Assembly (NCBI GenBank): GCA_020060765.1
Contig: JAGUZQ010000106.1
Location: 1 to 64,000, forward strand
Length of the DNA: 64,000 nt
Reading direction: 5' to 3'
DNA from: Planctomycetota bacterium
GTDB lineage: Bacteria; Planctomycetota; SZUA-567
Shown here in pieces: positions 40,345 through 56,643 of the stretch. The notes beneath the pieces are model-generated. The model was given only the letters and a program-made list of their open reading frames with translations, ran no database searches and was not told where the DNA came from. The stretch's first letter is position 1. Every line of letters starts with the position of its first letter. The translations under genes were made by a program, and so were the position numbers.

Positions 40345-43086
40345 CTACTTCTCTTTTCTGGCAGCAAGGAATTCCTGCAGAGTTTCCACCGGCGGCAGCG
40401 AATCGCAAGCCACCAGCGTCACCGGTTTCCAGATGCCGCCCATACCGGCGCGATTATAAACCCGCACCGCGACCAGGTTTTTCTCCCCCGGTTTCAGGAA
40501 AGGCTTGGCGTCGAACACGAACGGGCGATCCCAGGTAGCGCCTGCCCCGACTCCGGCGGTTTTGTCGTTATGGGTGAAAGCCGGTTGGCCATTGATAAAC
40601 ACTTCCGCATCCTCGTCCACCGCGCCGAACAATAGCAGCGCGTGCTGGCGTTCCGCGAAAGCGGCGGGAATTTCCAGCGTCTGCCGATACCACCCGTAAC
40701 CGGTGTATTCGGGAAAGCCCTGCGACTCCCAGCCGTTGCCGAGGTCGGAGCGGACTTCCTTCCAGTCGGCGTCGGCGGTTTCAGGCAGATGCCATTTCTT
40801 TTCCAAACCATCCTGCTGCGGCGCAGTGGCGAAACGCCAGGCAGGAGCCAGCGGCAAAACCGCCAGTTTCCCCGCATTTTCAGCTTCGACCAGTTCCGCC
40901 GCGTTGGCGGAGAGTTTCTGATCTTTAAGATCAAGCAAAGGTTTCCACTCCGCCATCAGTTCGTCCCAGGCTTCCTGCGCAATCCGCTGCCAGTGCGGCA
41001 TGAACATATATGGCTTCTTGAAGGCGTAAAAAGCATCCCGGCTGGCGGAAAGTTCCTTCACTTCCGCCTGGATAGCGGCGAGAGCCTCTTTTTGTTTAGC
41101 CTCGTCCTTGCGATTTTCCACCGCGCAGGCATAGCGTTCCAGAATCGTTATCCAGCGTTGCATTATGACGCAACCAGCCAGGAGTTCGGGATTATTCACC
41201 TTTTTCGCGCGCGCGGTCGCCTCCTCGCAGACGGCACGCACCCGAGACATCTCCTCATGCGTGGCGAATTCAAAGCCTTTGTACGGCCAGTTGCCGCCGC
41301 CCTTGCCGGTGAAATATTTGACAATCGGCTTGACTATGGATTCGGTCAAGCTGTTGTTGCCGTGGCCGTTGCTGAAGCCTCGCGCAGCATATTCCGTCAT
41401 GGCGATAATACGCGCTGTTTCCTCCGGTTGGTCGAGGTTTTTCCGCACCGCCCACGCAAGAGCAAATTGCTCGGGAGTGCGACCGTCCCGGTTCCAGAGA
41501 AATTCCGCCATGGCCTGGCCGTTGAAATCGTGCATGTAATGGCTGGATGGCAGATGCTGCACGACGAATTCCATTCCCCTGTCGACCGCCTCCGCCGCCA
41601 GCAGCTTGCAGTACACGGGTGTCTGGAACGGGTACATCATCAGCCCTTGGTAGCAGTGAGATGCGGTAGGGCTGGGAGTTGAACCGACGGTGTAGCCCAT
41701 CCGTTGCATCTCCATCACCGACGGCGGAAGATTGTATTTCTGGAAAGTAGTCTTATAGGTCATGGTGCCGTGATAGAAATTAAGCAGTACATCTTTAGGC
41801 ACGTATTTCAGCAACTCGAGGTTGTAGTCGTAAGAGCCCTGGGTCAAGCCCAGCATGATGCGGAAATTGGGATTAACCTGCTTGGCCTTGGCGTAGGCGT
41901 TCATCAGCAATTCGGTTTCCCGCAGAAACGCCTGGCGCGGGTCGCCTTTGCATTTGGGGCAGTGACAGACGCCGCGAGAGCCTTCGATTTCCGACAGCCA
42001 CAGATCTGCGAAGTCAAACTGCTTGGCGAGGGATACCAGATAGTTATCAAATATTTCATCCATTTTCGGCGCGTTCAGACAGAATACCGGAAACTCCTTG
42101 GCCGCTTTTGCATCCGGAGTCGCGGCAATACCCGGATACTTTTCGACCAGCTTCTTGTTTCGTAGAAAAGGCGCGGTCAGATGACTTGTGCCGGGATAAA
42201 CCCATACTCCGTATTTTTTTCCCAAGCCGATCGTATCCTGGGGAAAATACCATTCCGCCGCCAGGTTTTCATCCTTGTCCAAAACCGGCCTGACCGCCCA
42301 CGCCTCGCAGAGGTTGTATTTCCAGCCGGAAAAATCGCGGATTGTTTTTTCATAGTTAGGGATGTCCTGCTCAACCGGAATGCCCCAATTACGACTAAGC
42401 ACTGTCCACGAGCCGCGCCACTTCACGTCCGGCCAGTCAACGATTTCGATCTCCGGCACGATCAGCCCTTCCTTGCCCGACAAACTGTCCAGCAACTGCC
42501 CGCAAGTCAGCAAGCCGTAATACAAGCCGCTTTCGGCGTTGGCGGCGATGTAGACGGTGGAAACTCCGTCCACCGTTAATGCGCGCAGGATATAAGCCTG
42601 CTCCGGGTTCGGCCTTTCCGCCAGGTATTGCGCGTCGATCAGTCCCTTCTCCGCCGCCTGCTTCAACTCCGGATGGCTGCCGACCAGACCGACCACGATT
42701 TTCCATGTATAAGGCATGGCCAAGTGTTCGTTGCTGTGGTGTAGCGGCGCGAACTTCTCTCCCCACTTGGTCGAGAAATCAGCCAGCATCTGCTTGGTAG
42801 TTTCGTTCTCCCCCAAGTCATGCACCAGCAGCGCCGTATTTGCCTCGACGCCGAACGCGGTGTTGCGCAGGCGCAGTTCCTGCGGCAGGGGAAAGAGGAA
42901 TTGTCTGACTCTCTCCCGCTGCTCGGCAGTAAGTGCGACGGTCTCGATCGCCGCTTGTGGTTTGGCAGTCTCCTGATTCTGTGGTGGAGCGAAAGCCTCT
43001 TCCCCGCATCCTGCGGAGACAGTCGCCAGCAGCAGAAAGGAAAGAACAAAGCCGGGGATGTGTTTTCTGGTTTGATGGTTGCTCAT
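40345..43086 (-). CDS. Lipoprotein GH20/DUF4838-like glycosidase with jelly-roll domain
   Basis: 913 residues with a lipoprotein signal (lipobox VSAGC). An N-terminal GH20b-type alpha/beta domain (about 60-220; YYGLLTCGQLLDSL) leads to a TIM-barrel-like region starting IVDWPDVKWRGSW. This includes WLSEIEGSRGVCHCPKC, where the Cys pair pattern is typical of DUF4838 proteins and the Glu is the candidate acid. The C-terminal part (about 760-890) is a galactose-binding-like jelly roll (LLLFGAVDEDAEVFINGQ). It probably acts on an amino sugar or uronic acid glycan at the surface. It is last in the sigma/FecR-pseudopilin/CE7 operon, 48 bp after the esterase gene. Confidence 0.65.
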   Translation of the reverse strand: MSNHQTRKHIPGFVLSFLLLATVSAGCGEEAFAPPQNQETAKPQAAIETVALTAEQRERVRQFLFPLPQELRLRNTAFGVEANTALLVHDLGENETTKQMLADFSTKWGEKFAPLHHSNEHLAMPYTWKIVVGLVGSHPELKQAAEKGLIDAQYLAERPNPEQAYILRALTVDGVSTVYIAANAESGLYYGLLTCGQLLDSLSGKEGLIVPEIEIVDWPDVKWRGSWTVLSRNWGIPVEQDIPNYEKTIRDFSGWKYNLCEAWAVRPVLDKDENLAAEWYFPQDTIGLGKKYGVWVYPGTSHLTAPFLRNKKLVEKYPGIAATPDAKAAKEFPVFCLNAPKMDEIFDNYLVSLAKQFDFADLWLSEIEGSRGVCHCPKCKGDPRQAFLRETELLMNAYAKAKQVNPNFRIMLGLTQGSYDYNLELLKYVPKDVLLNFYHGTMTYKTTFQKYNLPPSVMEMQRMGYTVGSTPSPTASHCYQGLMMYPFQTPVYCKLLAAEAVDRGMEFVVQHLPSSHYMHDFNGQAMAEFLWNRDGRTPEQFALAWAVRKNLDQPEETARIIAMTEYAARGFSNGHGNNSLTESIVKPIVKYFTGKGGGNWPYKGFEFATHEEMSRVRAVCEEATARAKKVNNPELLAGCVIMQRWITILERYACAVENRKDEAKQKEALAAIQAEVKELSASRDAFYAFKKPYMFMPHWQRIAQEAWDELMAEWKPLLDLKDQKLSANAAELVEAENAGKLAVLPLAPAWRFATAPQQDGLEKKWHLPETADADWKEVRSDLGNGWESQGFPEYTGYGWYRQTLEIPAAFAERQHALLLFGAVDEDAEVFINGQPAFTHNDKTAGVGAGATWDRPFVFDAKPFLKPGEKNLVAVRVYNRAGMGGIWKPVTLVACDSLPPVETLQEFLAARKEK

Positions 43087-43134: not shown

Positions 43135-45096
43135 TCATTCCGCAAGCAAATACTTGGCGATCCACTCGGCTTTTACCTTGATAAAATCCGGCCCCTGGAC
43201 GCAGTGGAATCCCAGCGGGTAACAGAACTGGCGTTTCTCGATATCGCCCAGGTTGTTGTACATCGCTGCAATACCTTCTGGAACCGTGCAGTAATCCGTG
43301 AATCCATTGCTCACCAGTACGGGGCATTTTATCATCGGCGCAAAGTTGGCCATGTCGAAGTAGCGCATCACCCCCAGGACTTTCTCGCGGGAGAGTTCTG
43401 GCTTGGCTTTGGCCATCTGCAGGAAACTCGGAAAATGAGAGATTGAAATATCGCAGGTGATCTCGTAGGCGCAGAAGGCGGGCGTCACCGATATTGCCAG
43501 GCATATTCGCTTGTTCAGCGCCGGGGTAACCAGCGCCGCCCCGCCGCCCTGCGAGCCACCAGATATCCCGATGCGTTCAGCGTTGATGTCTGGACGCTCT
43601 GCCAGATATTCCACCACCCGGTATAAATCCTGGAAAGCGTTACGGTGATAATAGGTTTCCTTACTTTCCAGTCCCATGTTCAAAAGATAGGTTTCGTAAT
43701 CGTGGAGTTCCCGGCTGTGACCCTGTCCCCGCATGTTATGGGCATAGGTTGCCAACCCCTGCCCGCTCATGTCGACAGGCTCGCATCCCCCACGATTAGA
43801 GCCGGTATAGCCGTGGACTATGATCAGGCAGGGGAAAGGCTTGCCGTCGGCGCGTTTGGGAGGCAACGTCAGAAAGCCAACCGTGGGTATCCCGTCAGCC
43901 CCGTTCAACACCAATCGGTAAACCCGGCTGCCGTTAGGATTTTCGCGCAGCAACTTTTCTTCCGGTCGGATCGGGATCGCGTCTGATTCCCGGATCACCC
44001 CGTCCCAGAATTTCTTGAAATCCTCCGGCGGGAGTTCCTGCATGGTGTTGGTCAGAATGCCGCCGGGGATGGGAAAAAACTGCTGGCGGCTCGCGAAAGG
44101 ATAATATGTGTCCCTTACCTTGACAACACCCTTTACCTTCAGCACTTTTCGCGCCCATCGAGGCAACAGCGCCTCTTCCGGAATACGGTTGTCGCCGTTA
44201 TGCAACGTGTCCAGTTTTACCGTGAAAGCCTGTTCCGGTTCCTGCTTGGGCGTGAAAACAATTTCCGCTGTCGCCATTTTCTCCCATGCCGGATTGATAG
44301 TGAGATTCAGCGATACAAAACCGCCTTCGTCATAATCCATCACCACGTCCGGGATAAATCCGAAAGACGAGTTCCAGATTTCCGCCGTTCCCGGCTGTTC
44401 ATCTGCTACGCAGGTGGCAAAGGTGGATTGCCGATTGTAATCGTAACCGGCGGGGGAATAAAATTGTTTTTGCACGCCGCCGTCCCGGTCGTTAATGCCG
44501 ACGGCAAGGCGTACAGGCTCCTGGGGAGCGGAACCGTTTTCCCGCAGCAAGGCCCACGGCAGGAGAATTTCATAAACAGACTTGTTTCCGTTGCGGGTGA
44601 ATCTGACGTCTGCCAGCGCCAGCCTGTCCAGCATAAGTTGGGTTGCGTCCGCCAACGTGACCTTTACCGGTATGTCACGCAAGCGCTTGCCGGAATTTTT
44701 GGAATACCACTCCGCGCGACCCTTGCCGTTCCAGTCGAAAAAGACGAACTGCTGTTCCTCAAACCAGAATTCGACCGAATCGTAAAGATACGGTTCCCGC
44801 TCTCCCTCGCCCGGATTGCCGGAGGGCGGCGCATGTTCCGTATCTGCGGTTTCCACCTTCAGCAACAGCCCCGCCTGCCGCCAGGCGATTTTGAACCAGG
44901 CTTCGTAATCGGCGTATTTTTCGCCGGAGCGGCATTTGTCGATCGGTATAGCGGGAATGCTTTCCCATGTTTCCGGAGAGACGGCATCACTGCCCTGCCC
45001 AGTTATTTTCTTGATCTTGTAGTTTTCCGGTTCCCCTGCCGCCGCAACCGAGTAACCCAGGCTGAGCGCCATTGCGTAAATTATGATGAAGCGCAT
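43135..45096 (-). CDS. Secreted CE7-type acetyl esterase with CBM9-like N-terminus
   Basis: 653 residues from ATG 45096 (GGAGAAT 7 nt upstream); a TTG at 45108 is rejected. Signal peptide about 1-20. Residues about 30-260 resemble a CBM9/DOMON carbohydrate-binding domain (DYEAWFKIAWRQAGLLLKVE, EFWFEEQQ). The C-terminal alpha/beta-hydrolase (about 350-650) is like acetyl xylan esterase CE7: nucleophile in GISGGSQGGG, Asp in NGFTDYCTVPEG, His in GFHCVQGP. It would remove acetyl groups from a glycan in the periplasm. Same operon as the GH20-like enzyme. Confidence 0.8.
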   Translation of the reverse strand: MRFIIIYAMALSLGYSVAAAGEPENYKIKKITGQGSDAVSPETWESIPAIPIDKCRSGEKYADYEAWFKIAWRQAGLLLKVETADTEHAPPSGNPGEGEREPYLYDSVEFWFEEQQFVFFDWNGKGRAEWYSKNSGKRLRDIPVKVTLADATQLMLDRLALADVRFTRNGNKSVYEILLPWALLRENGSAPQEPVRLAVGINDRDGGVQKQFYSPAGYDYNRQSTFATCVADEQPGTAEIWNSSFGFIPDVVMDYDEGGFVSLNLTINPAWEKMATAEIVFTPKQEPEQAFTVKLDTLHNGDNRIPEEALLPRWARKVLKVKGVVKVRDTYYPFASRQQFFPIPGGILTNTMQELPPEDFKKFWDGVIRESDAIPIRPEEKLLRENPNGSRVYRLVLNGADGIPTVGFLTLPPKRADGKPFPCLIIVHGYTGSNRGGCEPVDMSGQGLATYAHNMRGQGHSRELHDYETYLLNMGLESKETYYHRNAFQDLYRVVEYLAERPDINAERIGISGGSQGGGAALVTPALNKRICLAISVTPAFCAYEITCDISISHFPSFLQMAKAKPELSREKVLGVMRYFDMANFAPMIKCPVLVSNGFTDYCTVPEGIAAMYNNLGDIEKRQFCYPLGFHCVQGPDFIKVKAEWIAKYLLAE

Positions 45097-45141
45097 GAGA
45101 TTCTCCAATCCAATAAAATCAATCAGAACGGAACTGGCTAT

Positions 45142-46143
45142 TTACGGCGTCGTCACCCCAATCTTTCCGGTCAGTCTCGGAATAACCCAATCCGGGGCAT
45201 TGCCGGGCGAAGCCCATATGTCGTCCAGAGATGTTTTCAGGTGCTTGGCGTGACCGCCCACGAACAGGACATTGACCCCGCCGGGGTGGGGCATCCAGTA
45301 ATCAGCCACTACCTGTTTATAAAATCCCCACATGTCGACCAGTAACCAGCGATCTGGCGAATTGGCGCTCAGTCGCGCTCGCATCACCGCCAGCTGTGCG
45401 GGATTGAGGGTTTCCGTCCTGTTAACAGTCCACTCGCACCACCGCGTCCAGTAATTGTTATGAGATTGCGTGCCGGTCGGGCTCCAGCCATAAACTTTCG
45501 TGCCATTCCTGCCGCTGTAGCTTAAATCCCCGGGTTGACCAAACGCGGTGCTTTTCGTCACTTGATTGCTGCGGCTGGGACAGTAAAAAACCTTGCCGTC
45601 GTTCAGGTAACCGGAGCCATACAGGCTGCCGAAGCCTTGCCAGCGGGAAATATGGCACAATCCAAATCCCGGAGCCACAGCCGCAGGTGGATTACCCTCG
45701 GCCTCGTATTGTCTCGGCGGCTGGCGACCGAAATCGCCGTCGTACATGGAATAGGCGCAATACTGCTGTTTCATGTTATTGATGCAAGCCACCTGCGTAG
45801 CCATGCTGATAGCCTTTCCCAACGTCGGCAGCAGCAGCGCTCCGAGAATGGAAAGGATAGCGACAGCCACCAGCAATTCCACCAGGGTAAAGGCGGCATT
45901 GGATTGCCGTCGCCAGGAGTTAACCCCGGAATTCATCCCGGATTCGCGACTGGCGTAAATCACCTTGCCTTCCTCGCGGTTAAGCCGGCAGGATTGCCTG
46001 AACTCCGCCTCTTCCCTCGCCATTCTCAACAAACCGCGCCGCGCCTCCCGGCTGGAGCGCAGGCACAGGTTCAGTTCGCCGACGCTTGCAACCGAAACCA
46101 TGCCGTCGAGATAATCGCGCATCAGGCTGTACTCTCGGTTCAT
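45142..46143 (-). CDS. FecR-like N-terminal domain fused to a prepilin-like protein
   Basis: 333 residues. The ATG at 46143 overlaps the sigma factor TGA by four bases, so the two are translationally coupled. Residues 1 to about 55 have the anti-sigma/FecR N-terminal pattern (MRDYLDGMVSVASVGELNL, CLRSSREARRGLLRMA). A basic linker (NSWRRQSNA) leads to the type III prepilin signal A84|F85, FTLVELLVAVAILSILGALL, then a pilin-like domain that ends with PHPGGVNVLFVGGHA, a variant of the H-X9-DG motif. There is no FecR ligand domain. Thus a regulatory leader of about 84 residues replaces the usual short leader. Met70 could be an internal start but has no ribosome binding site. Confidence 0.85.
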   Translation of the reverse strand: MNREYSLMRDYLDGMVSVASVGELNLCLRSSREARRGLLRMAREEAEFRQSCRLNREEGKVIYASRESGMNSGVNSWRRQSNAAFTLVELLVAVAILSILGALLLPTLGKAISMATQVACINNMKQQYCAYSMYDGDFGRQPPRQYEAEGNPPAAVAPGFGLCHISRWQGFGSLYGSGYLNDGKVFYCPSRSNQVTKSTAFGQPGDLSYSGRNGTKVYGWSPTGTQSHNNYWTRWCEWTVNRTETLNPAQLAVMRARLSANSPDRWLLVDMWGFYKQVVADYWMPHPGGVNVLFVGGHAKHLKTSLDDIWASPGNAPDWVIPRLTGKIGVTTP

Positions 46144-46673
46144 TTTACATTCTCCCCCAGCTTAAGATTCTTTTCCACGCACCGGCGCAGGCCATCCCTG
46201 GTACGTTGCAAAACCATCTGCACCGCGCCGGTGCTGCGATCAAACCTATCCGCGATTTTGCCTATCGCCTCGTTTTCCTCATATCTTGCCCGGAAAATCT
46301 CCGCCGCCTGTCCTTTCAGGCTTTTAATACATTTGCGCAAGGCCGGAAGTTTATCGTTGGCAGAGGCATATTCCTCCGCCGCATCCTCGGCCATCAGGGC
46401 AATGACGTCCGGCGACAGAATTTCCTTTCTTTTTGCCTGTTTTTCCCGCCATTTGAGGCATTCCAGCCGCGCCACTCCCAGCGCCCACGCGATAAAAGGG
46501 CGGGACTGGTCGTAAGCCGCGAATTTTTCCCATAACACGCAGGAAACTTCCTGAAACAAATCCTCGGCCGAGTTCGCATCCCCGCATATCGCCAGGAGAT
46601 AACCCCGGATACGGTCTTCGGTTTCGACGAAATTCCGGATAAAGCTTCTGTGGGCAGTTTCATTCATAGCCAT
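46140..46673 (-). CDS. ECF-type RNA polymerase sigma factor
   Basis: 177 residues. Region 2 lies at about 10-80 (FIRNFVETEDRIRGYLLAI, NSAEDLFQEVSCVLWEKF, IAWALGVARLECLKW) and region 4 at about 110-170 (FRARYEENEAIGKIADRFD, STGAVQMVLQRTRDGL), typical of the sigma-70 family seen with FecR-like proteins in Planctomycetes and relatives. Its stop overlaps the FecR-pseudopilin gene by ATGA. It probably directs transcription of its own operon with the CE7 and GH20-like enzymes. The other frame-start Met at residue 3 is equally possible. Confidence 0.9.
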   Translation of the reverse strand: MAMNETAHRSFIRNFVETEDRIRGYLLAICGDANSAEDLFQEVSCVLWEKFAAYDQSRPFIAWALGVARLECLKWREKQAKRKEILSPDVIALMAEDAAEEYASANDKLPALRKCIKSLKGQAAEIFRARYEENEAIGKIADRFDRSTGAVQMVLQRTRDGLRRCVEKNLKLGENVK

Positions 46674-46696: not shown

Positions 46697-47240
46697 ATGA
46701 TCACGGTTTTTTTTTTGATTTTCAGCGACTTGAAAGATTATCAGGTCGATCAAGTGTTTCTGGAAAAGGGCGAGTCTGCGAAAACAGCCGACAGAACGCA
46801 GTTGAAAGCGGCTCTGGCTTACGTCGCAGCCAAGGGCGATATTGATGTTTTTCTGGTTCACAAACTCGACCGCGCCGCGCGGCAGAGTTTGGATTACCAT
46901 ATGATCGTCGCCACGTTGATGGCGGCGGGGTGTAAGCTGGTCAGCGCAACCGAGCAATTCGACAATGAAACGCCTTCGGGGCGGTTCATGGGCGGCATTC
47001 TTGCCCTGCAAGCGCAATTCGATAACGAGGTCAGAACTGAGCGATGTAAAAGCGGCATGATTGAATCGGTCAAGCGCGGTTGTTGGATGTGGACGGCTCT
47101 GGATTCAAAACCGGTAAGACGCGGGACGGACATGCGACCCTTTATCATGATCCGGTGATGGCTCCAATTCAAAGCCTGTGGTGTCCGGAAGGAATTTTGT
47201 TTGAAAAATCCAAGCCAGTTAGAACCCGCTTAATAATAAA
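46697..47240 (+). pseudogene. Truncated, frameshifted serine recombinase (resolvase) remnant
   Basis: The frame at 46697-47158 contains the middle of a serine recombinase (DVFLVHKLDRAARQSLDYHM, KLVSATEQFDNETPSGRF, FDNEVRTERCKSGMIESVKR). The N-terminal 50 or so residues with the catalytic Ser and arginines are missing: 46674-46700 leads directly into the neighbouring sigma gene. After VKRGCWMWTA the matching continuation (GFKTGKTRDGHATLYHDP) is in another frame, so there is a frameshift near 47095, and the match ends near 47175. A perfect 8-bp inverted repeat, CGCCAGCA/TGCTGGCG, lies at 47243-47272. It marks the decayed left border of the prophage. Confidence 0.8.
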
Positions 47241-47448: not shown

Positions 47449-48051
47449 ATGAAGACCATTTTTCTGACACTCTTTGCGCTTATCATCTGCGGCACCACGT
47501 TCGCGGCCGAAGCCGAGAAAAAAGATGCGCCGAAAGAGGAAACCACCAAGGAAGCGCAGGAGGAGGTTAAGGCGCTCACCGTCGACGATCTGATGAAAGA
47601 GTTGGAGGATTACCGGAAGTTCATTCAGAAGAACAGAGCGGGAGCCATTGACTCATATCGGTATAAACTTGAAGAAAAGCTTACCGGTAAGCCGGTAATG
47701 ATTGAATTGCCCGCAAAAGAAAACGTCAACATCGTCAAAGCAAGGAATGAATATTCGGTAACGTTTGAAAAGAGTAAACGGGTACAGAAGAAATCGAAAA
47801 AAAAGAACGAAGTTAATCTTTCAATCTCAGTAGGCTATACAGATCTTACCGAAGAAGAAGCAAACAATATCGATAAAGTCACTGGTTATATAAAAAGCGT
47901 TACTCTCAATGGTTCTTCTGACCACGCATCAATCTATCTATCCATAATTATCCAAAAAGGCTGGAAGCCCAAGGCAGTCGAAGAAGCCGAGAAGGCCGCC
48001 GCTGAAAAGGACAAGGAAAAAGACGGCGGCGAAGGAAAAGAAAAACCTTAA
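47449..48051 (+). CDS. Secreted Lys/Glu-rich protein at the prophage border
   Basis: 200 residues with a clear signal peptide (MKTIFLTLFALIICGTTFAA) and AGGAGG 8 nt before the ATG. The mature protein has charged low-complexity ends (EKKDAPKEETTKEAQEE; EAEKAAAEKDKEKDGGEGK) and a central folded part (about 45-165) with helix and beta strands (EVNLSISVGYTDLTEEEANN). No family recognised. It has its own strong promoter, is convergent with the tail-fibre gene (stop codons overlap at TTAA, 48048-48051) and is more AT-rich than its neighbours. This layout fits a lysogenic cargo (moron) gene, by inference. Confidence 0.7.
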   Translation: MKTIFLTLFALIICGTTFAAEAEKKDAPKEETTKEAQEEVKALTVDDLMKELEDYRKFIQKNRAGAIDSYRYKLEEKLTGKPVMIELPAKENVNIVKARNEYSVTFEKSKRVQKKSKKKNEVNLSISVGYTDLTEEEANNIDKVTGYIKSVTLNGSSDHASIYLSIIIQKGWKPKAVEEAEKAAAEKDKEKDGGEGKEKP

Positions 48052-49601
48052 CTCTCCCTTGCAAACTGCCTCTCCGGTGAAGTCGGCGCAAGCCCGATGT
48101 CAGGCAACAGGATTTCGGCGGCAGGGCTGTAAACCGTCCCATCGGTTGCCCGGATCGCTGCGTATTCCTCGCCTGTTTGAGTCCGGAAAAACGCCCTTCG
48201 CCCAACGGCAGGCATCCCATTGAGCATCATCGTTTCGGCAGGGTCGCCGCTGGTATCGACCGGCGAAGTTGCGCCATACCAGATTGCAAAGCCTGTAATC
48301 GAACTCGCGCCGATCCCCGCGGGGCAAAGGAAACTGATTTTCGTCTTGCCCGTGCGGGTGTATGATAGCGACAGGTCAGTCACCGCCGGAATCACCGACA
48401 CGACAGCCCCGCCAGTGGAAACGGCTACAGTCAGGAATTGCGCCATGCGACAATCCCAAAACCAGCGGCGCGGACGGATTTCGATTTCGTGCGTACCTTC
48501 TGCAAGCGACACATCCAGATAACCTTCCTCGTCGATCTTGCCAAGCAGAGAGCCGCCTTCGTAAAGGTCGTAACCTTCCGTGAGAAATACGTGCGCCCGG
48601 TCTGCCTGCTGCGACCGGACATAGGCGAAGATGTTGGCGCGGTCTGCTTGCTGCGATTGCACGTAAGCGCGGATTCCTGCCCGGTCAACCTGTTGGCCGG
48701 TGACGCCGCCACGGATGTCCGCACGGTCGGCCTGTTGTGACGCCACCAATGCCCGCACGTCGATCCTGTCGGCCTGCTGGCTGGTGATGATAGCGCGTAA
48801 CACGTCTGCGCGGTCTGCCTGTTGCGACGCAACCAAAGCGCGGACGTTGGCGCGGTCGGCTTGGCGGGAAATTACAGGCACCGGGACAGTATACCGTCCT
48901 GTCGGCGGAGTAAAACCATCGGCAGGGTTGCCGCTGGCGATATAGATAGGATCACCGTATTTGTTAATGCGGCCAGTGTCGAGTGAGAATCTTAACTCGG
49001 CAAGCTGGCCGATGAAATAATATGACGCTCCGGTATATTCCCCCATCCTGCCGATTGCCATTTTTGCGCTGCTGTTGTTGGCGGTGATGCCTGTGACGTC
49101 AACGGTTGCGGTTTGCAAAACGCCGTCGATAAATAAATAGAGCGTATTGCCTAACCGCACGAAAGCCACGTGATGCCAGGCGTTGTCGTTTACGGTCGAA
49201 TTTGAGACCGCGTCATACATCGTAGAGCCAGATGCCAGCGTTCCGTACATTTTCCCGGCTACGAGCCGCAACTCCACGCTGCGGCTCGTGGTCGCCCCGG
49301 CACCGTTGCACTGCGCCATAATTACCCCGGTGGCGTTTGACGTTTTAAATTGTCCATCCATGCAAAAATTTAGGCCAGCAACATACCAGTCGGCGCTATC
49401 AGGAGTGTCTCCGTAGTCGCTGCCGTCAAGAGTTGCAACGCCGTCGTTTCCGCCCCACGGATCGGCCACGCCGGTATCAACCTGCATGTCGCCCTGCGCC
49501 GTCACGGTGTGCGCGCTGGCGCTGCTGTCGGGAAACGCTGTGGACGCGTCCGCGCCAGTGCAGTGCAGCATTAATTTTGTATATGCGTCGATTCCGGCCA
49601 T
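48048..49601 (-). CDS. Prophage tail fibre-like protein with LamG domain and 14-residue repeats
   Basis: 517 residues, last of the virion gene run, as expected for a fibre or host-contact protein. Residues about 40-215 are LamG/concanavalin-like (VATLDGSDYGDTPDSADWYV, AWHHVAFVRLGNTLYLFIDG). Residues 246-343 carry seven tandem copies of a QQADRAxVRALVxS-type unit, 14 residues each (one has 15). The C-terminal third (about 345-517) is beta-rich (GYDLYEGGSLLGKIDEEGYL). The function as adhesin or fibre is inferred from order and architecture. Confidence 0.7.
   Translation of the reverse strand: MAGIDAYTKLMLHCTGADASTAFPDSSASAHTVTAQGDMQVDTGVADPWGGNDGVATLDGSDYGDTPDSADWYVAGLNFCMDGQFKTSNATGVIMAQCNGAGATTSRSVELRLVAGKMYGTLASGSTMYDAVSNSTVNDNAWHHVAFVRLGNTLYLFIDGVLQTATVDVTGITANNSSAKMAIGRMGEYTGASYYFIGQLAELRFSLDTGRINKYGDPIYIASGNPADGFTPPTGRYTVPVPVISRQADRANVRALVASQQADRADVLRAIITSQQADRIDVRALVASQQADRADIRGGVTGQQVDRAGIRAYVQSQQADRANIFAYVRSQQADRAHVFLTEGYDLYEGGSLLGKIDEEGYLDVSLAEGTHEIEIRPRRWFWDCRMAQFLTVAVSTGGAVVSVIPAVTDLSLSYTRTGKTKISFLCPAGIGASSITGFAIWYGATSPVDTSGDPAETMMLNGMPAVGRRAFFRTQTGEEYAAIRATDGTVYSPAAEILLPDIGLAPTSPERQFARES
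48585..48866 (-). repeat. Seven tandem 42-bp repeats in the fibre gene
   Basis: They encode units QADRANVRALVAS, QQADRADVLRAIITS, QQADRIDVRALVAS, QQADRADIRGGVTG, QQVDRAGIRAYVQS, QQADRANIFAYVRS and QQADRAHVFLTEG. Gln-Gln and Asp-Arg are fixed; the other positions drift, so the array is old or under selection. One copy has an extra codon. Confidence 0.9.
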
Positions 49602-49604
49602 GGT

Positions 49605-51113
49605 TTAACCCCACTGCAAGTAAACGTCCATATCAACATCGCTGCGGATTCTCATGCCGTCGAGAACGGTCAGTCTCTTGCATACCGAGTTGTACGCGGC
49701 GGCGGCAAGGTCACCGTAGGAAAGACCATTGGCGAAGGTCGGATAATCGCCAAACGTCACGCCGTCCGGGGCAACGCCGGTAGCAGGATTTTCGTACAAC
49801 CCCGATCCGTCCGGGGCGTCAATCCCGATGTCGATGTCTGCCATAGGCTCAATCGCATCGCCAGCTTCCCACGCGACGGCGGTATACCCACGATGCCCAA
49901 GAACGCTTGCCCCGTCCGCGACGGCCATGGTAACGGAACTCACTTCAATGTTTTCGTCGTTCTGGAATGCCGTGCCGTTCCACCCTTTGAAGATGATCGT
50001 TCCGGCGGCATCGTCACCAGCCCACGAACCGGAAGTCAAAACGATCTGGTCAACGTAGGCTTGCGCGCCCGAGGTCGCGCCAACGATTAAATCGCCCGGC
50101 TGGATTTCTTCCGCGCCAGCGTCGAAAGCAATCGCACCCCAAAGCACCGCCGCGCAATACAGCTTGCTTCCATCGCGCCGCGTGACATATCGGCAATCGG
50201 TTTTCGTGGTGTTCTTGACCCACATGCCGCCGGAAATCCAGTCAGCAAGGCTGGTCGCGGTAAAATCGCCTGCCCCGGTGCCAAGGCTTTCCCCGACTGC
50301 AATCGTGGTCGCAGTTCCTGCCGGGACTCCGGTACGAGCGGTCAGGTCAATCATGGGGTCGGTGGCGCTGTTGTTGTGGATGATTTCCCAAACATACCGG
50401 GTTGACCCGCCGGTTGCGTCCGATGTTTCGTAAGACTCAACATCCGGAGTCAGGAAGCCGGTCGGCGCACTGGTGACGAAAGTATCGGTCTGGTCACTGC
50501 CCGGCAAACTGGAATTGGTCACGTCCACAATGGCGAAGGCGTTGCCGTCTGCCGTGTAAAGGACGCCATCGGTGACGTCGCTGGACACGTCGATTCCGTT
50601 GCCATACTCTGAGCCGCCGACTTCTTTGATATGCAGGGTCATTTCCGAGTAATCGAAAAATATCGACAGCGTTCCCTCACCCAAACCGGCGCTCAAATAC
50701 TTTAGAGTCAACCCGGTTATATTCGTGCCTGTCACGGCTTGGATTTCCGGGTGCGCCCCGTCGGCCTGCAAACCAAACAGGCGCGTTCCTGATCGACGGT
50801 AGCCGCCCAGGACAAGGCGATACTTGTCGCCAGCGGCGGGGGCGACAGGCAGGCTTTTGGCCAGAGTCAGCGCCCCGGTCACGGAAGACCGCACATGGAA
50901 AGGCTGTCCGCGTAATGCGGCGGTTACCGTGTCGCCGTCAAACCAACCTTGCGCCCCGTCCCAATATCCGTCCGCTTCGGTCAAGGCCGCGTCCACAATC
51001 GTCTTTGCCGTGCATCCGGAATCGGCGGTCTGCTGGGTAATTGCGTCGCCGTTGGACGCAAGGTATTTGCTGGCGAAATACCTGATCAATTCGTCAACCG
51101 TTGGTGTGCTCAT
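49605..51113 (-). CDS. Prophage tail-associated protein, unknown
   Basis: 502 residues, 3 bp upstream of the fibre gene. Mostly beta-rich, Gly/Asp/Thr-rich sequence (SSVTGALTLAKSLPVAPAAG, SGAQAYVDQIVLTSGSWAGD) typical of phage tail-tip or fibre proteins. A short helical N-terminus (TVDELIRYFASKYLASNG) could be the attachment part. No family is recognised. Confidence 0.65.
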   Translation of the reverse strand: MSTPTVDELIRYFASKYLASNGDAITQQTADSGCTAKTIVDAALTEADGYWDGAQGWFDGDTVTAALRGQPFHVRSSVTGALTLAKSLPVAPAAGDKYRLVLGGYRRSGTRLFGLQADGAHPEIQAVTGTNITGLTLKYLSAGLGEGTLSIFFDYSEMTLHIKEVGGSEYGNGIDVSSDVTDGVLYTADGNAFAIVDVTNSSLPGSDQTDTFVTSAPTGFLTPDVESYETSDATGGSTRYVWEIIHNNSATDPMIDLTARTGVPAGTATTIAVGESLGTGAGDFTATSLADWISGGMWVKNTTKTDCRYVTRRDGSKLYCAAVLWGAIAFDAGAEEIQPGDLIVGATSGAQAYVDQIVLTSGSWAGDDAAGTIIFKGWNGTAFQNDENIEVSSVTMAVADGASVLGHRGYTAVAWEAGDAIEPMADIDIGIDAPDGSGLYENPATGVAPDGVTFGDYPTFANGLSYGDLAAAAYNSVCKRLTVLDGMRIRSDVDMDVYLQWG

Positions 51114-51123
51114 GATCTATCTC

Positions 51124-51675
51124 CTATGCAATTGCTATCCTAAAAACGCCGCCGCCTTGCGCCGTCACCGTAACCGTTTCCGGCGCGTCTGGCGGTTGAA
51201 AAACTCGAAAGACCCAACTGGCTCTGGTTGACTGACGGCCATATTGATCGACCGCCTCAACCCGGAGGAAATGCCAGCCGTCAACCAATTCTTTCGTCAA
51301 CTGGATTTCGTAAGCCGCCGCGCCGATGTCCGTGACCTGTCTGATTGCGCGTTCCGATCCGCCGGGGGCGCGGTGGTAAACGATATATGTTTCCGCTCCC
51401 GCCGCCGCCTGCCACCTGAGCAGCGGCTTGCCCCACCTGTCGCGCGATGGCAATGACGGCTCCGGCATATCCGCGCCTTCGTGCAACAGGATTGCCAGAG
51501 GCCGCGACGCATCCGACACGCCGACAGTGACCGTCTGCTCTGCGCCGGTCGCAACTGTCTCAGTCGGCAAAACCACGCCGTCAACCTCGATCCACACCGA
51601 TACGCCAACGGTGCCGGTGAACGTGATTACCAGTTTACCGGGAGAGACATAAGCAATGTCGAAAGCGTCAATCAT
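51124..51675 (-). CDS. Prophage Fn3-like tail protein
   Basis: 183 residues, beta-rich, with fibronectin type III character in the middle and C-terminal parts (GKPLLRWQAAAGAETYIVYH, ELVDGWHFLRVEAVDQYGRQ, PPDAPETVTVTAQGGG). Fn3 modules are common in tail tips and fibres. It overlaps nothing, with 1 bp to the preceding gene and 10 to the next. Confidence 0.65.
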   Translation of the reverse strand: MIDAFDIAYVSPGKLVITFTGTVGVSVWIEVDGVVLPTETVATGAEQTVTVGVSDASRPLAILLHEGADMPEPSLPSRDRWGKPLLRWQAAAGAETYIVYHRAPGGSERAIRQVTDIGAAAYEIQLTKELVDGWHFLRVEAVDQYGRQSTRASWVFRVFQPPDAPETVTVTAQGGGVFRIAIA

Positions 51676-51676
51676 G

Positions 51677-52960
51677 TTATTCCTCTGGCGTCCAATTCGG
51701 TGGCGCTGGCGGAGTAAATGAGTCTGTCACGCAAAATACGTATGAATCTCCTGACGGCGACCATCCTGAATATGGCCCTTCGTTGTTACATGCCAGCGGG
51801 TGTACCGTCCACGCGTGGTCTGTGAAATTGTATGTCGCCGACCAATGATGAAACGACGGCGTCCAGGGCGGAGGTGCTGGTTGTGTCCAGTCTGAGTAAA
51901 TTATGCAGGTCGGCGCGGCGTCGCCTTCCGGCGTCCAGTCTGTGGCCGTGCTGTCGTGCTGGATCGAGTCAAGCGCCACTGTCCACCCAGCCACCGCGTC
52001 GCATGTCGCTGTCCAGTGGTAATATGAATTGACGTTTTCCCATGTGACTTTTAAGCCGCAATACCAATCGTCACGCGCCTCCATGTCTTGAGTGAAAATA
52101 TAGAGGAAAAAGCCGATGCGATGCCACGCGGCGGCATTATCCACGCCTTGAAACTTAAATTCAATCGGGGTGTTTTTTGGCAGCACTACCGGGTAATAGC
52201 CATTGCTGTCGCCGGTGCCATCGTCGCCGATCAACAGATTAGTGTATGGCGTGTCTTCCCAGCAGCGACTATAAACCAACGTGCCGTCAATCCAGTGCGC
52301 GATTAAATCATCGCCTCTGCCATAATTCATGAACGCAACTACGACATCCTTATTGAGCGTCATGCGAAGATGAGCGGAAGTAATCCTTGATACCGGGTAA
52401 TAGTCATAATCCTTATTTTGCACCGAACCGAAATTATTGATTTCGAGGTAATTATCCGGATTGAATGCAATCCCGCCGATTGACGATTGCCCAAAGTTAG
52501 TCTTACAGTTAGCCTGACCACGAGAAAGAGAGCCGTAAAAATTGAGCCAGTAATTCGACTGTTCGGCATAGCTCAAAATTTCCATCGGCGTATAGTAAGT
52601 TATGGGGGCCCCAGTCTCCGGGTCGTAATCCTCCCATGATTCGTAACGCAGATTTCCGGGACGTGGACCTGATACTCCAGCAAATCCTCCAGCAATCCAG
52701 AAATTAAGCGGTAGTGGTAATCCGCATGGACATTCCATCGCAGTTTTAATGGCGACCGGCTTTCCCTTTGCGCCGAGGATTGCAAACCCATAATCACCGT
52801 TTTCGAGCGGCGCGGTGCGGGACGCGACCGGACGCCCGCAAGCGGCAGGATAGGCAAGGCCAAACTCGCCATTGGCAAGCGCAACCTCTTTGTGCGCGAC
52901 CGGACGCCCGCACGAACCTGAGATGGGAAAACCGAAATCGCCGTTTTCGAGATTACCCAT
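51677..52960 (-). CDS. Prophage structural protein with N- and C-terminal internal repeats
   Basis: 427 residues. Three N-terminal copies of a 23-residue unit (NGDFGFPISGSCGRPVA, NGEFGLAYPAACGRPVA, NGDYGFAILGAKGKPVA) are followed by a middle beta-rich region (about 110-300) and two C-terminal copies of a Trp/Cys-rich unit of about 60 residues, each ending PAPPPWTP or PAPPNWTP. The middle part could be a receptor-binding or LamG-like fold. Recognised only as a tail-region protein by position. Confidence 0.6.
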   Translation of the reverse strand: MGNLENGDFGFPISGSCGRPVAHKEVALANGEFGLAYPAACGRPVASRTAPLENGDYGFAILGAKGKPVAIKTAMECPCGLPLPLNFWIAGGFAGVSGPRPGNLRYESWEDYDPETGAPITYYTPMEILSYAEQSNYWLNFYGSLSRGQANCKTNFGQSSIGGIAFNPDNYLEINNFGSVQNKDYDYYPVSRITSAHLRMTLNKDVVVAFMNYGRGDDLIAHWIDGTLVYSRCWEDTPYTNLLIGDDGTGDSNGYYPVVLPKNTPIEFKFQGVDNAAAWHRIGFFLYIFTQDMEARDDWYCGLKVTWENVNSYYHWTATCDAVAGWTVALDSIQHDSTATDWTPEGDAAPTCIIYSDWTQPAPPPWTPSFHHWSATYNFTDHAWTVHPLACNNEGPYSGWSPSGDSYVFCVTDSFTPPAPPNWTPEE

Positions 52961-53605
52961 TTAATCCTCTTCCCCGTTGAAAATCTCAAACGCATCACCG
53001 ATCACGTTACCCTCTGCGTCGGCTAGTTTGACACTAATCATTCCGTCCGCAGGATCGGCAACAGCTTTTATCCTAACCGGCATGGCGCCATCTCCGATCT
53101 GGATCACGGCCAGCATTTCGCCGGTGCTGGCCGCATTCTTTTTCCAGAGAATTTTCGCCCTGCCAAGCCAGGCCGAGACCAGAATTTTCGATTCGTCTTC
53201 GATGGTCGCGTACCAGTGATCGGCGTCGCTGACATTCACTCGCGCCATGCAAATGCCAAGGTAATGCCCCAGGCCGACTCCTCCGTCCGCGATCTTTTCC
53301 CCGGCAATGGCGAACGATCCGACGTGCTTTTCCGTGTCGATTTCCTCGGTCTCAATCAGTATGGTTTTCGGATGATTTTGATTATCGGTGAGATACTGTT
53401 CGCCAAGACCGATTACCTCTCCGAATTCAATATCGCGTTCGAGAGTATTGGCCAGCTTCACGGACAGGCAACTGTCAGGTGCGAACCCGCCATACCGCCG
53501 GTTGCCGGTTCCGATGTTGGCGGCATTCCGGAGTATGGCGCTACGCATCCCATTGAGGCGCAGCGCCGTTATCGGATCACTTTTTTGCCAACGTTCCAAC
53601 GCCAT
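52961..53605 (-). CDS. Prophage tail-region protein, unknown
   Basis: 214 residues. The ATG at 53605 overlaps the upstream TAA by one base (TAATG). It has helical N-terminal residues (ERWQKSDPITALRLNGMRSA) and beta-rich remainder (ILIETEEIDTEKHVGSFAIA). No family recognised; position between tape measure and fibre suggests a distal tail or baseplate part. Confidence 0.6.
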   Translation of the reverse strand: MALERWQKSDPITALRLNGMRSAILRNAANIGTGNRRYGGFAPDSCLSVKLANTLERDIEFGEVIGLGEQYLTDNQNHPKTILIETEEIDTEKHVGSFAIAGEKIADGGVGLGHYLGICMARVNVSDADHWYATIEDESKILVSAWLGRAKILWKKNAASTGEMLAVIQIGDGAMPVRIKAVADPADGMISVKLADAEGNVIGDAFEIFNGEED

Positions 53606-54486
53606 TAGAACAGACTCCCCGAAAGACCGAGAGCGGAGAAGTCGGAATCCTTGAAGAACTTGGCAATGTACAGCCCTTCCGCTTTCGTCTCTACCATGTT
53701 GGTGCCGGTAACGACCTCGGCTTCACGGATCCATGCGTATTCCCAGCCCAGGACATCGCGGGTGAAAACGAAGTCACCCCCATCTATCGCAGGGTGCTTT
53801 GGCAAATCAGCCATCGCCTCATTTCTACGGATTGCGAAATCGAATTGGAGCGCCCACAAGTCTTCCATCTTCTTCGGAATAGAGATGCTTTCCAGCCGCA
53901 CCTCGCCAGCCGCGAACCCATAGAACACATCCGAATTCACCTTGCCTCTTTCGCCTATGCAACCTACAACATATTCGGTGTTTATGGCGTTCTTATCCTT
54001 GTATAGCGTTACCGACAATGTCGTAGTCGGCACACCCCAGGGAGCACCCTCGACCGTGCCGTCTCCTTTCAGGCCGACGCAGTTGCCAACAGGCACACTT
54101 TCTTTCCCGCCTGTTGACGCCATAGGGGTTTGTTTAATCGCATACTTCACCGTCTCCTGCTGCATCTGGCCGTTGATAGTCCAGATTTCTGTGCCGTCCT
54201 GGGGATTGAGTTCTTCCGTGTCGCCGTCGAGGGTTTCAAAATCCGCCGTCACGTTCCAGACGTAATCACCCAGCGCGGTAATCTCCTCCAGTTCCGACCG
54301 AATCCGGCTGCAACGCATAGTGCTGCCAGACATAAGGTCGCCTTCCTGGAATCCTAGTGCCGCCTCCGCGTCCTCCGGTTCGGTGGCACTATCCGAGACG
54401 ACGCGATATTGAATCGATTTCGTTTGCTTGCCGCCTATCGCGGACGACGACGACAGCGTTTTCGTTGACTGGATTTCCGTTGCCAT
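53605..54486 (-). CDS. Prophage tail protein downstream of tape measure, unknown
   Basis: 293 residues, just after the tape-measure gene, the usual place of the distal tail protein. Beta-rich (TTTLSVTLYKDKNAINTEYV, GEVRLESISIPKKMEDLWAL), with a helix-poor C-terminus. It could be a tail-tube or distal-tail paralogue; no motif decides. Confidence 0.6.
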   Translation of the reverse strand: MATEIQSTKTLSSSSAIGGKQTKSIQYRVVSDSATEPEDAEAALGFQEGDLMSGSTMRCSRIRSELEEITALGDYVWNVTADFETLDGDTEELNPQDGTEIWTINGQMQQETVKYAIKQTPMASTGGKESVPVGNCVGLKGDGTVEGAPWGVPTTTLSVTLYKDKNAINTEYVVGCIGERGKVNSDVFYGFAAGEVRLESISIPKKMEDLWALQFDFAIRRNEAMADLPKHPAIDGGDFVFTRDVLGWEYAWIREAEVVTGTNMVETKAEGLYIAKFFKDSDFSALGLSGSLF

Positions 54487-54498
54487 GATTTGCCCTTT

Positions 54499-56643
54499 CT
54501 AGGTTGCCACAGCAACCTGCCGTTCGCTCGTATTTCTAACGAGCTCAGCCAGGTGCTTGTTTGCCTTTTTGTTTTCCGCAAGCTGGTCTTTCAGGGTTTT
54601 ATTCTCGCTTCCAATCGCGAGAGACGAGGCCGAGAAACTACCCCTGATCGTGGTGTTGTCTGTACCTTTTGTCCCTCCTCCAAGATTTGGCATCCCGGTA
54701 TCGATATTCGGCATTCCGTTTTCATCCAGCCCCGCGAGATTCAGGTTCGACCCTTCCAATTGCGCGGCGAGTTGTTTGTACATCTCCGGTGTCAGCTTGT
54801 CTTTCAGAGAGGAAATGAACTCGGGGATTTTTTCCGATATTCCAGGCTTGCCAGTATCTTTTGCAAAAACAGATGCCATTTCCTGTTCAAGGCTGTTCCG
54901 GTAGTTTTCACCCTCTGTTTTCCTTCTGGCTTTTCGTTCTGTATACGCTGCCTCCCTGTCTGCCGCTTTCTTTGCACGTTCCTCCTCAGTCCCTCCCAAC
55001 GCACCACTGCCGAAAAGCTCCTCTGCTTTCTTTCGGACATCGTTCTTGGCGCGCAGGTAACCGGCATCGTCCTTACTCCACCAGTTCTTCGCATCCCGCA
55101 CTGTTATATAAATGCTCTTCACGGAGTCACGGATAGTGGCAAGCGCGTCCCAAAACGCATTCTTAACCGCATCCGCCGCTCCTTCCCCGGAAGTAATAAC
55201 CGCATCCCAGAATGAGTCAATTCCCTGCATTACCCAATCCCACCCGCTCAGGATCGCCAAAAACGTGGTTTGCATATATGCGCCGATGCTGGCGCCTCCG
55301 ATGCGGATACTCTTCAGTAGTTCCCCCCACCCTCTGTCTATCATCTCAAACGAACTGAGAACCATCACGGCAGCTACGGCAATAGCAACGAGAGGTGCAG
55401 CCGTAACAGCCGCCAAAGCAATCGCAAACGCCTTAACCGCCAAACCTAGTGCAAATATGCCAGCACCTACGGCAGTGACGGTAATGGCCATTTTCGCATA
55501 TGATATGACAAGCCCCTTATTCTGCTCAATCCAGAGCGCCCCCACCCTGACCATTTCCAGAATCTTTGACGCCCACTTCGACGCCAGCGGTTCCAGTGCT
55601 GCGCCGACACTCCGCAGCAACGCAAGGAATCCCTGCTTCAACTGCGCAATCTGAAAAGCCAGAGTATCGGTCTGCTTGGCGAACGCCTCCTGGGTAAGCC
55701 CGGCGCGATTCCCCATCAACGCCAGGTCCTGCTCCAGCCCCACCAGGTCGCCCATCAAGGGGTTGACGCCGCGCAGCGCTTCCACGTTCGGGAATATCTT
55801 GGCCAGGTCTTCCGCCGTCGCCCCGCCTTCCTTGAGCCTTTTCAGCACCCCGCTCAGGCCGAGGGTTTTCAGCGTAGTGGTATTCATCTCCACGCCGAAC
55901 TTCTTGGCCGCCTCGCTGGCTTCATCCGTCGGCTTCATGAAGTTCATCAAGATGCCGCTCACGCTGGCCACGGCCTGCGCAGTTTTGACGCCGTTCCTAG
56001 TCATGGTCGATATGGTCGCACCAAGTTCTTCCAGCGACAGTCCGGCCGAAGAAGCCGTGCTCGCCACCATGCCGATGGTCGGCGCCAGCGTGGAGAAATC
56101 GGTCTTGCCCTTCTTGACCACCGCGAACAGCCAGTCGCTGACCGACGCCGCCTGATCCGCCCCCAGGCGATAGCTGTTAAGGACGGTGGTGAGGGCGTCC
56201 GCCGCGGTGCCGGTATCTGACGCGCCCGCCGCCGCCGCTTTCATCGCCTCTTCGAGAACGCCCAACGCGCCCGCCGCGGGAACGCCAGCCGACAGGATGT
56301 CATACAGGCCGTTAGCGATAGTTCCGGTGTCCTCGCCAAAGCGCACCGCGAAGTCACTGACAGACTTTTTGAACACAGGCATGAACTGCATGTCGGCATC
56401 CGACAGCATCGTGGAAACCTTGGCCATCTGCTGCCCGAACTTCGCCTGTTCGTTCACTGCCAACGCGAGAGGCGCGATAGCGGCAAGACCCACCCCCATC
56501 ATGCGTCGGCCGATGCGTTCGGCGTTTTCGGCAAACCGGTTAAGCTTCTGGCTCGCTGCCGCCAGCCCCGCCACCAGTTTCGAGTCCTTCGTACCAAGCT
56601 CGACAAATGCCCCGCCCGCCTTGATTTCGCTATCGCCTGCCAT
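54499..56643 (-). CDS. Tail tape measure protein (TP901-type)
   Basis: 714 residues. The first 300 residues follow the phage tail minor/tape measure family: GVPAAGALGVLEEAMKAAAA, TDFSTLAPTIGMVASTASSA, ELGATISTMTRNGVKTAQAV. Hydrophobic membrane-like stretches (about 370-430) and a helical C-terminal half complete it. It sets tail length. At about 0.15 nm per residue, a general rule, the tail would be about 100 nm (inference). The ATG lies 14 bp inside the preceding chaperone frame. Confidence 0.9.
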   Translation of the reverse strand: MAGDSEIKAGGAFVELGTKDSKLVAGLAAASQKLNRFAENAERIGRRMMGVGLAAIAPLALAVNEQAKFGQQMAKVSTMLSDADMQFMPVFKKSVSDFAVRFGEDTGTIANGLYDILSAGVPAAGALGVLEEAMKAAAAGASDTGTAADALTTVLNSYRLGADQAASVSDWLFAVVKKGKTDFSTLAPTIGMVASTASSAGLSLEELGATISTMTRNGVKTAQAVASVSGILMNFMKPTDEASEAAKKFGVEMNTTTLKTLGLSGVLKRLKEGGATAEDLAKIFPNVEALRGVNPLMGDLVGLEQDLALMGNRAGLTQEAFAKQTDTLAFQIAQLKQGFLALLRSVGAALEPLASKWASKILEMVRVGALWIEQNKGLVISYAKMAITVTAVGAGIFALGLAVKAFAIALAAVTAAPLVAIAVAAVMVLSSFEMIDRGWGELLKSIRIGGASIGAYMQTTFLAILSGWDWVMQGIDSFWDAVITSGEGAADAVKNAFWDALATIRDSVKSIYITVRDAKNWWSKDDAGYLRAKNDVRKKAEELFGSGALGGTEEERAKKAADREAAYTERKARRKTEGENYRNSLEQEMASVFAKDTGKPGISEKIPEFISSLKDKLTPEMYKQLAAQLEGSNLNLAGLDENGMPNIDTGMPNLGGGTKGTDNTTIRGSFSASSLAIGSENKTLKDQLAENKKANKHLAELVRNTSERQVAVAT

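Follow-up and report, generated by a model that had tools for sequence, protein, structure and literature searches.

A gene directly downstream of an ECF sigma factor gene in the 64,000-nucleotide stretch of planctomycetotal DNA analyzed here (the window) encodes an anti-sigma-like domain fused to a prepilin. On balance, we consider this protein likely to be a membrane-bound regulator of the ECF sigma factor, built like a FecR-type protein but with a prepilin in place of the usual membrane helix and outer part; cleavage after A84 would switch the sigma factor. The anatomy given in the original prediction, comprising an anti-sigma-like domain, a prepilin site, a membrane helix, an external part, and coupling to the sigma gene, is supported by the sequence analysis and was found again at four further loci in the genome. 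The positions of the features are listed in Table 1.

Table 1. Features of the sigma/fusion locus and related features in the window
Feature	Position	Strand	Evidence
AbiEi-type region with prepilin, probable start 3720, 417 aa	2467..3825	-	AbiEi_4 4.3e-8, N_methyl 2e-8
Glycoside hydrolase-like (GH20b and GH2 sugar-binding domains), next gene, possible target	40345..43086	-	PF02837 1.8e-11, PF02838 1.4e-7
Acetyl xylan esterase (AXE1) family, possible target, 33 bp downstream of the fusion	43135..45108	-	PF05448 9.1e-41
Fusion protein, 333 aa	45142..46143	-	Open frame; four paralogues in genome
Residues 106-333, external pilin part, weakly DUF1559-like	45145..45828	-	PF07596 0.0021 (below cut-off), H-X9-DG 0.037
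Residues 85-105, pilin N-terminal helix, membrane segment	45829..45891	-	PF07963 4.4e-7
Predicted prepilin peptidase site between A84 and F85	45889..45894	-	N_methyl motif
Residues 58-84, linker, predicted unstructured	45892..45972	-	pLDDT 55-62, no helix
GTG61, possible internal start (leader of 24 aa)	45961..45963	-	Duplex -8.0 kcal/mol, 4-nt spacing (close)
Residues 1-57, predicted three-helix anti-sigma domain of FecR type (class I)	45973..46143	-	Profile and model
ATGA, sigma stop overlapping fusion start	46140..46143	-	Sequence
ECF sigma factor, TIGR02989 (Rhodopirellula/Verrucomicrobium) family, 177 aa	46140..46673	-	NCBIfam 7.3e-39
GGGGGAG, ribosome-binding site of the fusion	46152..46158	-	Duplex -8.4 kcal/mol before Met1

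Frame and start of the fusion gene

The ATGA overlap between the sigma gene and the fusion was confirmed, with positions 46140-46143 of the minus strand common to both frames. The GGGGGAG Shine-Dalgarno sequence lies 8 nt upstream of Met1 (-8.4 kcal/mol). At the internal Met70, which had been described as having no ribosome-binding site, the duplex energy was +0.1 kcal/mol, that is, no pairing, and Met70 was rejected as the true start for this reason. The earlier analysis of the start was thus correct in placing Met1 above Met70; it had left GTG61 (-8.0 kcal/mol) unconsidered. From its Shine-Dalgarno-like sequence, GTG61 could yield a second, ordinary prepilin product.

Resemblance of the leader to FecR-type anti-sigma domains

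Pfam and NCBIfam called no FecR domain in the fusion leader, and a family-specific profile is therefore needed to detect the similarity. We employed a profile (FecR-N) built solely from the N-termini of sigma-linked FecR proteins of other PVC genomes, which came from 80 named sigma loci of Planctomycetes, Verrucomicrobia, and Lentisphaerae. The window leader scored 16.4 bits, a value that none of 2000 shuffles reached, and the resemblance covered about residues 3-57. The leaders of the sister fusions on C74, C46, and C6 scored 20.4, 9.6, and 6.1 bits (0, 2, and 5 of 2000 shuffles as high, respectively); the C30 leader scored 1.1 bits, which 176 of 2000 shuffles equaled and which was not significant. 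The profile did not recognize the five leaders that are paired with other ECF types. When applied to the N-termini of 578 open reading frames of the same genome, it ranked a true FecR first (41.5) and sigma-linked prepilins in the next four places, with the window leader third, below the true FecR and one sister fusion. The FecR-type N-terminal pattern originally noticed in the leader is therefore beyond chance (0 of 2000 shuffles, rank 3 of 578). Residues 1-57 resemble a FecR-type anti-sigma domain and would belong to class I.

The five sigma-linked leaders with no match to the FecR profile would suit a different role, in which the leader serves pilin trafficking or assembly rather than acting as an anti-sigma domain and the sigma gene is a mere operon neighbor. 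We consider this very improbable because the profile score and rank tests favor FecR resemblance, the position is exactly that of FecR in other genomes, and short-leader prepilins carry no such domain.

Identity among the fusion leaders was 17-35%, and that among their sigma factors was 23-51%; at a given level of sigma divergence, the leaders differ from one another broadly as much as canonical FecR domains do. Such divergent leaders, together with the Shine-Dalgarno-like sequence at GTG61, could also be read as signs of a relic, in which a deletion placed a prepilin directly behind the N-terminus of a FecR protein and left the leader as a non-functional overhang on a usual pilin, perhaps begun at GTG61. 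However, open and well-started leaders have been kept beside sigma genes in five loci, they diverge broadly as functional FecR domains do, and the architecture recurs with other regulators, which makes a relic improbable.

A structural model computed with an alignment of FecR relatives folded residues 3-57 into three helices with a core pLDDT near 95. Its best PDB matches in Foldseek were the anti-sigma domains RsiW, RslA, MucA, and ChrR, with probabilities up to 0.99 and TM values of 0.5-0.65 and with E-values of only 0.3 to 5. A single-sequence model showed the same three helices (pLDDT 65) and matched neither an anti-sigma domain nor any other PDB entry, so that the support from the fold depends on the FecR alignment; a sequence-profile search of the PDB with the leader returned nothing meaningful. 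The predicted fold is supportive of anti-sigma identity, not independent proof of it. In class I anti-sigma domains, the first three helices bind sigma4 (PMC7406223). The fusion shares the predicted fold of residues 1-57 with these factors (RsiW, RslA, MucA, and ChrR), but it has no predicted fourth helix for sigma2 (residues 58-84 showed no helix, but confidence in this part of the model was low) and no Hx3Cx2C zinc motif, and a prepilin replaces the usual sensor part.

The prepilin part and its predicted cleavage site

The prepilin site between A84 and F85 proved to be a real motif, with matches to Pfam N_methyl (4.4e-7, residues 81-105) and TIGR02532 (7.6e-5). Similar to type IV prepilins and type II secretion pseudopilins (DUF1559-like), the fusion has a cleavage and methylation motif with Glu5, a hydrophobic helix, and an outer domain. 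Type IV prepilins have a short basic leader, whereas that of the fusion, if begun at Met1, comprises 84 residues and resembles a regulatory domain; the short-leader prepilins of the genome (n = 41) mostly have <30 residues before the cleavage site. Neither Pfam nor NCBIfam detected a FecR or LamG outer domain in the fusion, which carries a prepilin instead.

The residue at position -1 was Gly or Ala in all 43 regulator-linked prepilins scored, compared with 20 of the 41 short-leader ones (p = 8e-9, a value inflated by the common ancestry, or paralogy, of the fusions). Approximately half of these 41 depart from Gly or Ala, with Arg, Lys, Leu, Val, or another residue in this position, which is unusual for prepilin peptidase. 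The genome contains two prepilin peptidase genes. One of them, at C74:4510-4830(-), adjoins the C74 sigma/fusion pair.

Sigma/prepilin pairs in this and other genomes

The window sigma factor matched TIGR02989 at 133.2 bits, above the curated cut-off of 124.55. The genome contains 25 TIGR02989-like ECF matches and 91 prepilin motifs, and a prepilin with a long leader directly follows 10 of the 25 ECF genes; the probability of this adjacency by chance is about 9e-11 (from a rough gene count). Five of the pairs (window, C46, C74, C30, and C6) have FecR-like or FecR-positioned leaders, and the other five (C50, C48, two on C2, and C8) have other ECF types and other leaders. At these latter loci (C50:1871, C48:8011, C2:61469, C2:103858, and C8:32508), the ECF genes are followed by prepilins with leaders of 43-75 aa. 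Because five independent loci have the same architecture, a chimeric assembly or a chance open frame was rejected. The genome is a draft of 130 contigs and is 92% complete.

In the sigma tree, the factors of the window, C30, C46, and C74, which are 41-51% identical to one another, formed one clade (90/99), and C6 stood apart; a single clade for all five paired sigma genes was not rejected (p-AU 0.277). Beyond the first helix, the pilin bodies share about 17-24% identity, with the exception of window and C74 (50%), and the outer pilin parts appear to have been exchanged among the paired loci. No correlation among the five pairs, a set too small for coevolution analysis, was found in the divergence of sigma factor, leader, and pilin.

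Sigma/FecR-pseudopilin pairs, which the original prediction proposed to seek in related genomes, were present five times in this genome and in none of 391 other sampled genomes of the phylum, in which ordinary FecR proteins follow these sigma genes; the FecR-prepilin fusions were thus found in one genome only. A prepilin followed the TIGR02989 sigma gene at none of 30 loci in relatives and at none of the 80 named PVC loci. At nearly all of these 80 loci, a gene for a FecR-like protein comes next, and it often overlaps the sigma gene in the same way. The fusion occupies the position directly after the ECF sigma gene, as FecR does in PVC genomes.

Proposed mechanism

FecI/FecR and the planctomycete and verrucomicrobial TIGR02989 sigma/FecR pairs resemble the present pair in having an ECF sigma gene that overlaps the gene for a three-helix anti-sigma domain, which is followed by one membrane helix and then an outer domain. 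They differ in that the fusion has a prepilin as its membrane helix and outer domain, with no Pfam FecR domain, and in that FecR relies on Prc and RseP, whereas the fusion has a predicted prepilin peptidase site at this place. FecR fragments 1-58 and 1-85 bind FecI, and N-terminal FecR fragments activate FecI after proteolysis (PMC9249621). The active proteolysed fragment of FecR comprises approximately 85 residues (PMC9249621), and that predicted for the fusion comprises 84.

On the reading that we favor, the sigma factor would be kept at the inner membrane by residues 1-57, and the outer pilin part would report either on a substrate or on the assembly of a pilus or secretion apparatus. Prepilin peptidase would cut after A84 and release an 84-residue fragment, about the size of FecR1-85, the FecI activator in E. 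coli. The sigma factor would then be switched on by the fragment or freed once the fragment is degraded, and it would drive transcription of the carbohydrate genes downstream and, probably, of its own operon. An anti-sigma factor inactivated by prepilin processing is plausible from the features described. Prepilin cleavage elsewhere is normally constitutive, and signal-dependent cutting would therefore need an unseen control.

We counted the following in favor of the sigma-regulator reading: the coupling and ribosome-binding site at Met1, the FecR-N profile ranks, the three-helix fold, the FecR proteins in the same position in PVC genomes, the five paralogues, the ECF adjacency, the FecR-like divergence of the leaders, the uniform Gly or Ala at -1, and the peptidase gene beside the C74 pair. 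It is weakened by the unmatched leaders (C30 and five others), the restriction to one genome, and the possible start at GTG61. If the leaders are regulators freed by prepilin peptidase, one cleavage would tie pilus or secretion assembly to gene expression, and the peptidase would become a signaling protease. In Bacteroides, sigma/anti-sigma pairs linked to SusC/D act as sensors of their own clusters. The present reading, if true, would likewise offer an explanation for the approximately ninety prepilins of the genome, many of which lie beside carbohydrate-degradation genes and each of which may be the sensor of its own cluster.

Other regulators joined to prepilins

At least 36 other prepilins in the genome have an N-terminal AbiEi-type DNA-binding region of approximately 200 aa, with leaders of 181-264 aa; Pfam AbiEi_4 gave E <0.001 in three of the five tested. 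One such gene lies in the window (Table 1), and examples beyond it are L041, L047, and L053. Fusions of this AbiEi kind are present in two further genera of the family (at least 8 in G001 and at least 1 in G007); elsewhere in the phylum, the AbiEi protein is standalone and unfused. In genus g4 (G003), a complete GntR/LacI-type regulator is in frame with a prepilin (L261:1768-3456(-), 562 aa), and in genus g2 (G001), a GntR domain is (L271:1451-2701(+), 416 aa). Among 35 proteins encoded upstream of short-leader prepilins, GntR was found in 7 and a LacI-type binding domain in 7, the two sets overlapping.

Separate GntR- or LacI-type genes often lie just 5' of short-leader prepilins, so a fusion may merely weld operon neighbors. 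This observation bears on the main rival to the sigma-regulator mechanism, namely that the fusion is a polyprotein for co-expression. The regulator domain would be cut off promptly and would act in soluble form as an anti- or pro-sigma factor, at a level dictated by how much pilin is made, with no transmembrane signal. Efficient cleavage of this kind would agree with the finding that every regulator-linked prepilin scored has Gly or Ala at -1. Nevertheless, the prepilin sits where canonical FecR has its membrane helix and outer domain, which suggests that topology matters, and regulator domains of several origins converge on one arrangement. We consider a polyprotein unlikely.

The fuller picture is that several unrelated kinds of cytosolic regulator precede prepilins or are fused to them throughout the genome. 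The approximately fifty regulator-pilin pairs and fusions suggest an undescribed link of pilus-like proteins to gene control; in the open-access literature, no description of such an arrangement or of AbiEi, FecR, or sigma-factor linkage to prepilins was found. Membrane-tethered one-component regulators of the ToxR/CadC type place a regulator in the cytosol and a sensor outside, connected by one membrane helix. The AbiEi and GntR fusions have the same layout, except that the helix is that of a prepilin and carries a peptidase site. They may work in parallel to the sigma-linked fusion, with cleavage releasing a DNA-binding protein.

The gene families 3' of the fusions include DUF4838, LamG, CBM9, GH123, GHL10, and acetyl xylan esterase. 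We tentatively suggest, with some doubt, that prepilins may form a general chassis for transmembrane gene regulation, in which leaders of FecR-type anti-sigma, AbiEi, GntR, or GntR/LacI kind would be released by peptidase processing or pilus assembly and would control the adjoining carbohydrate cluster. If true, this would constitute a signaling principle parallel to regulated intramembrane proteolysis.

Two further features of the window lie near the sigma/fusion operon. An apparently partial gene for a resolvase-type recombinase (46697-47158(+)) is divergent from the sigma gene. Prophage tail genes (48048-56643(-)), which encode a tape measure protein (54499-56643) and tail fibre-like proteins, adjoin the operon.
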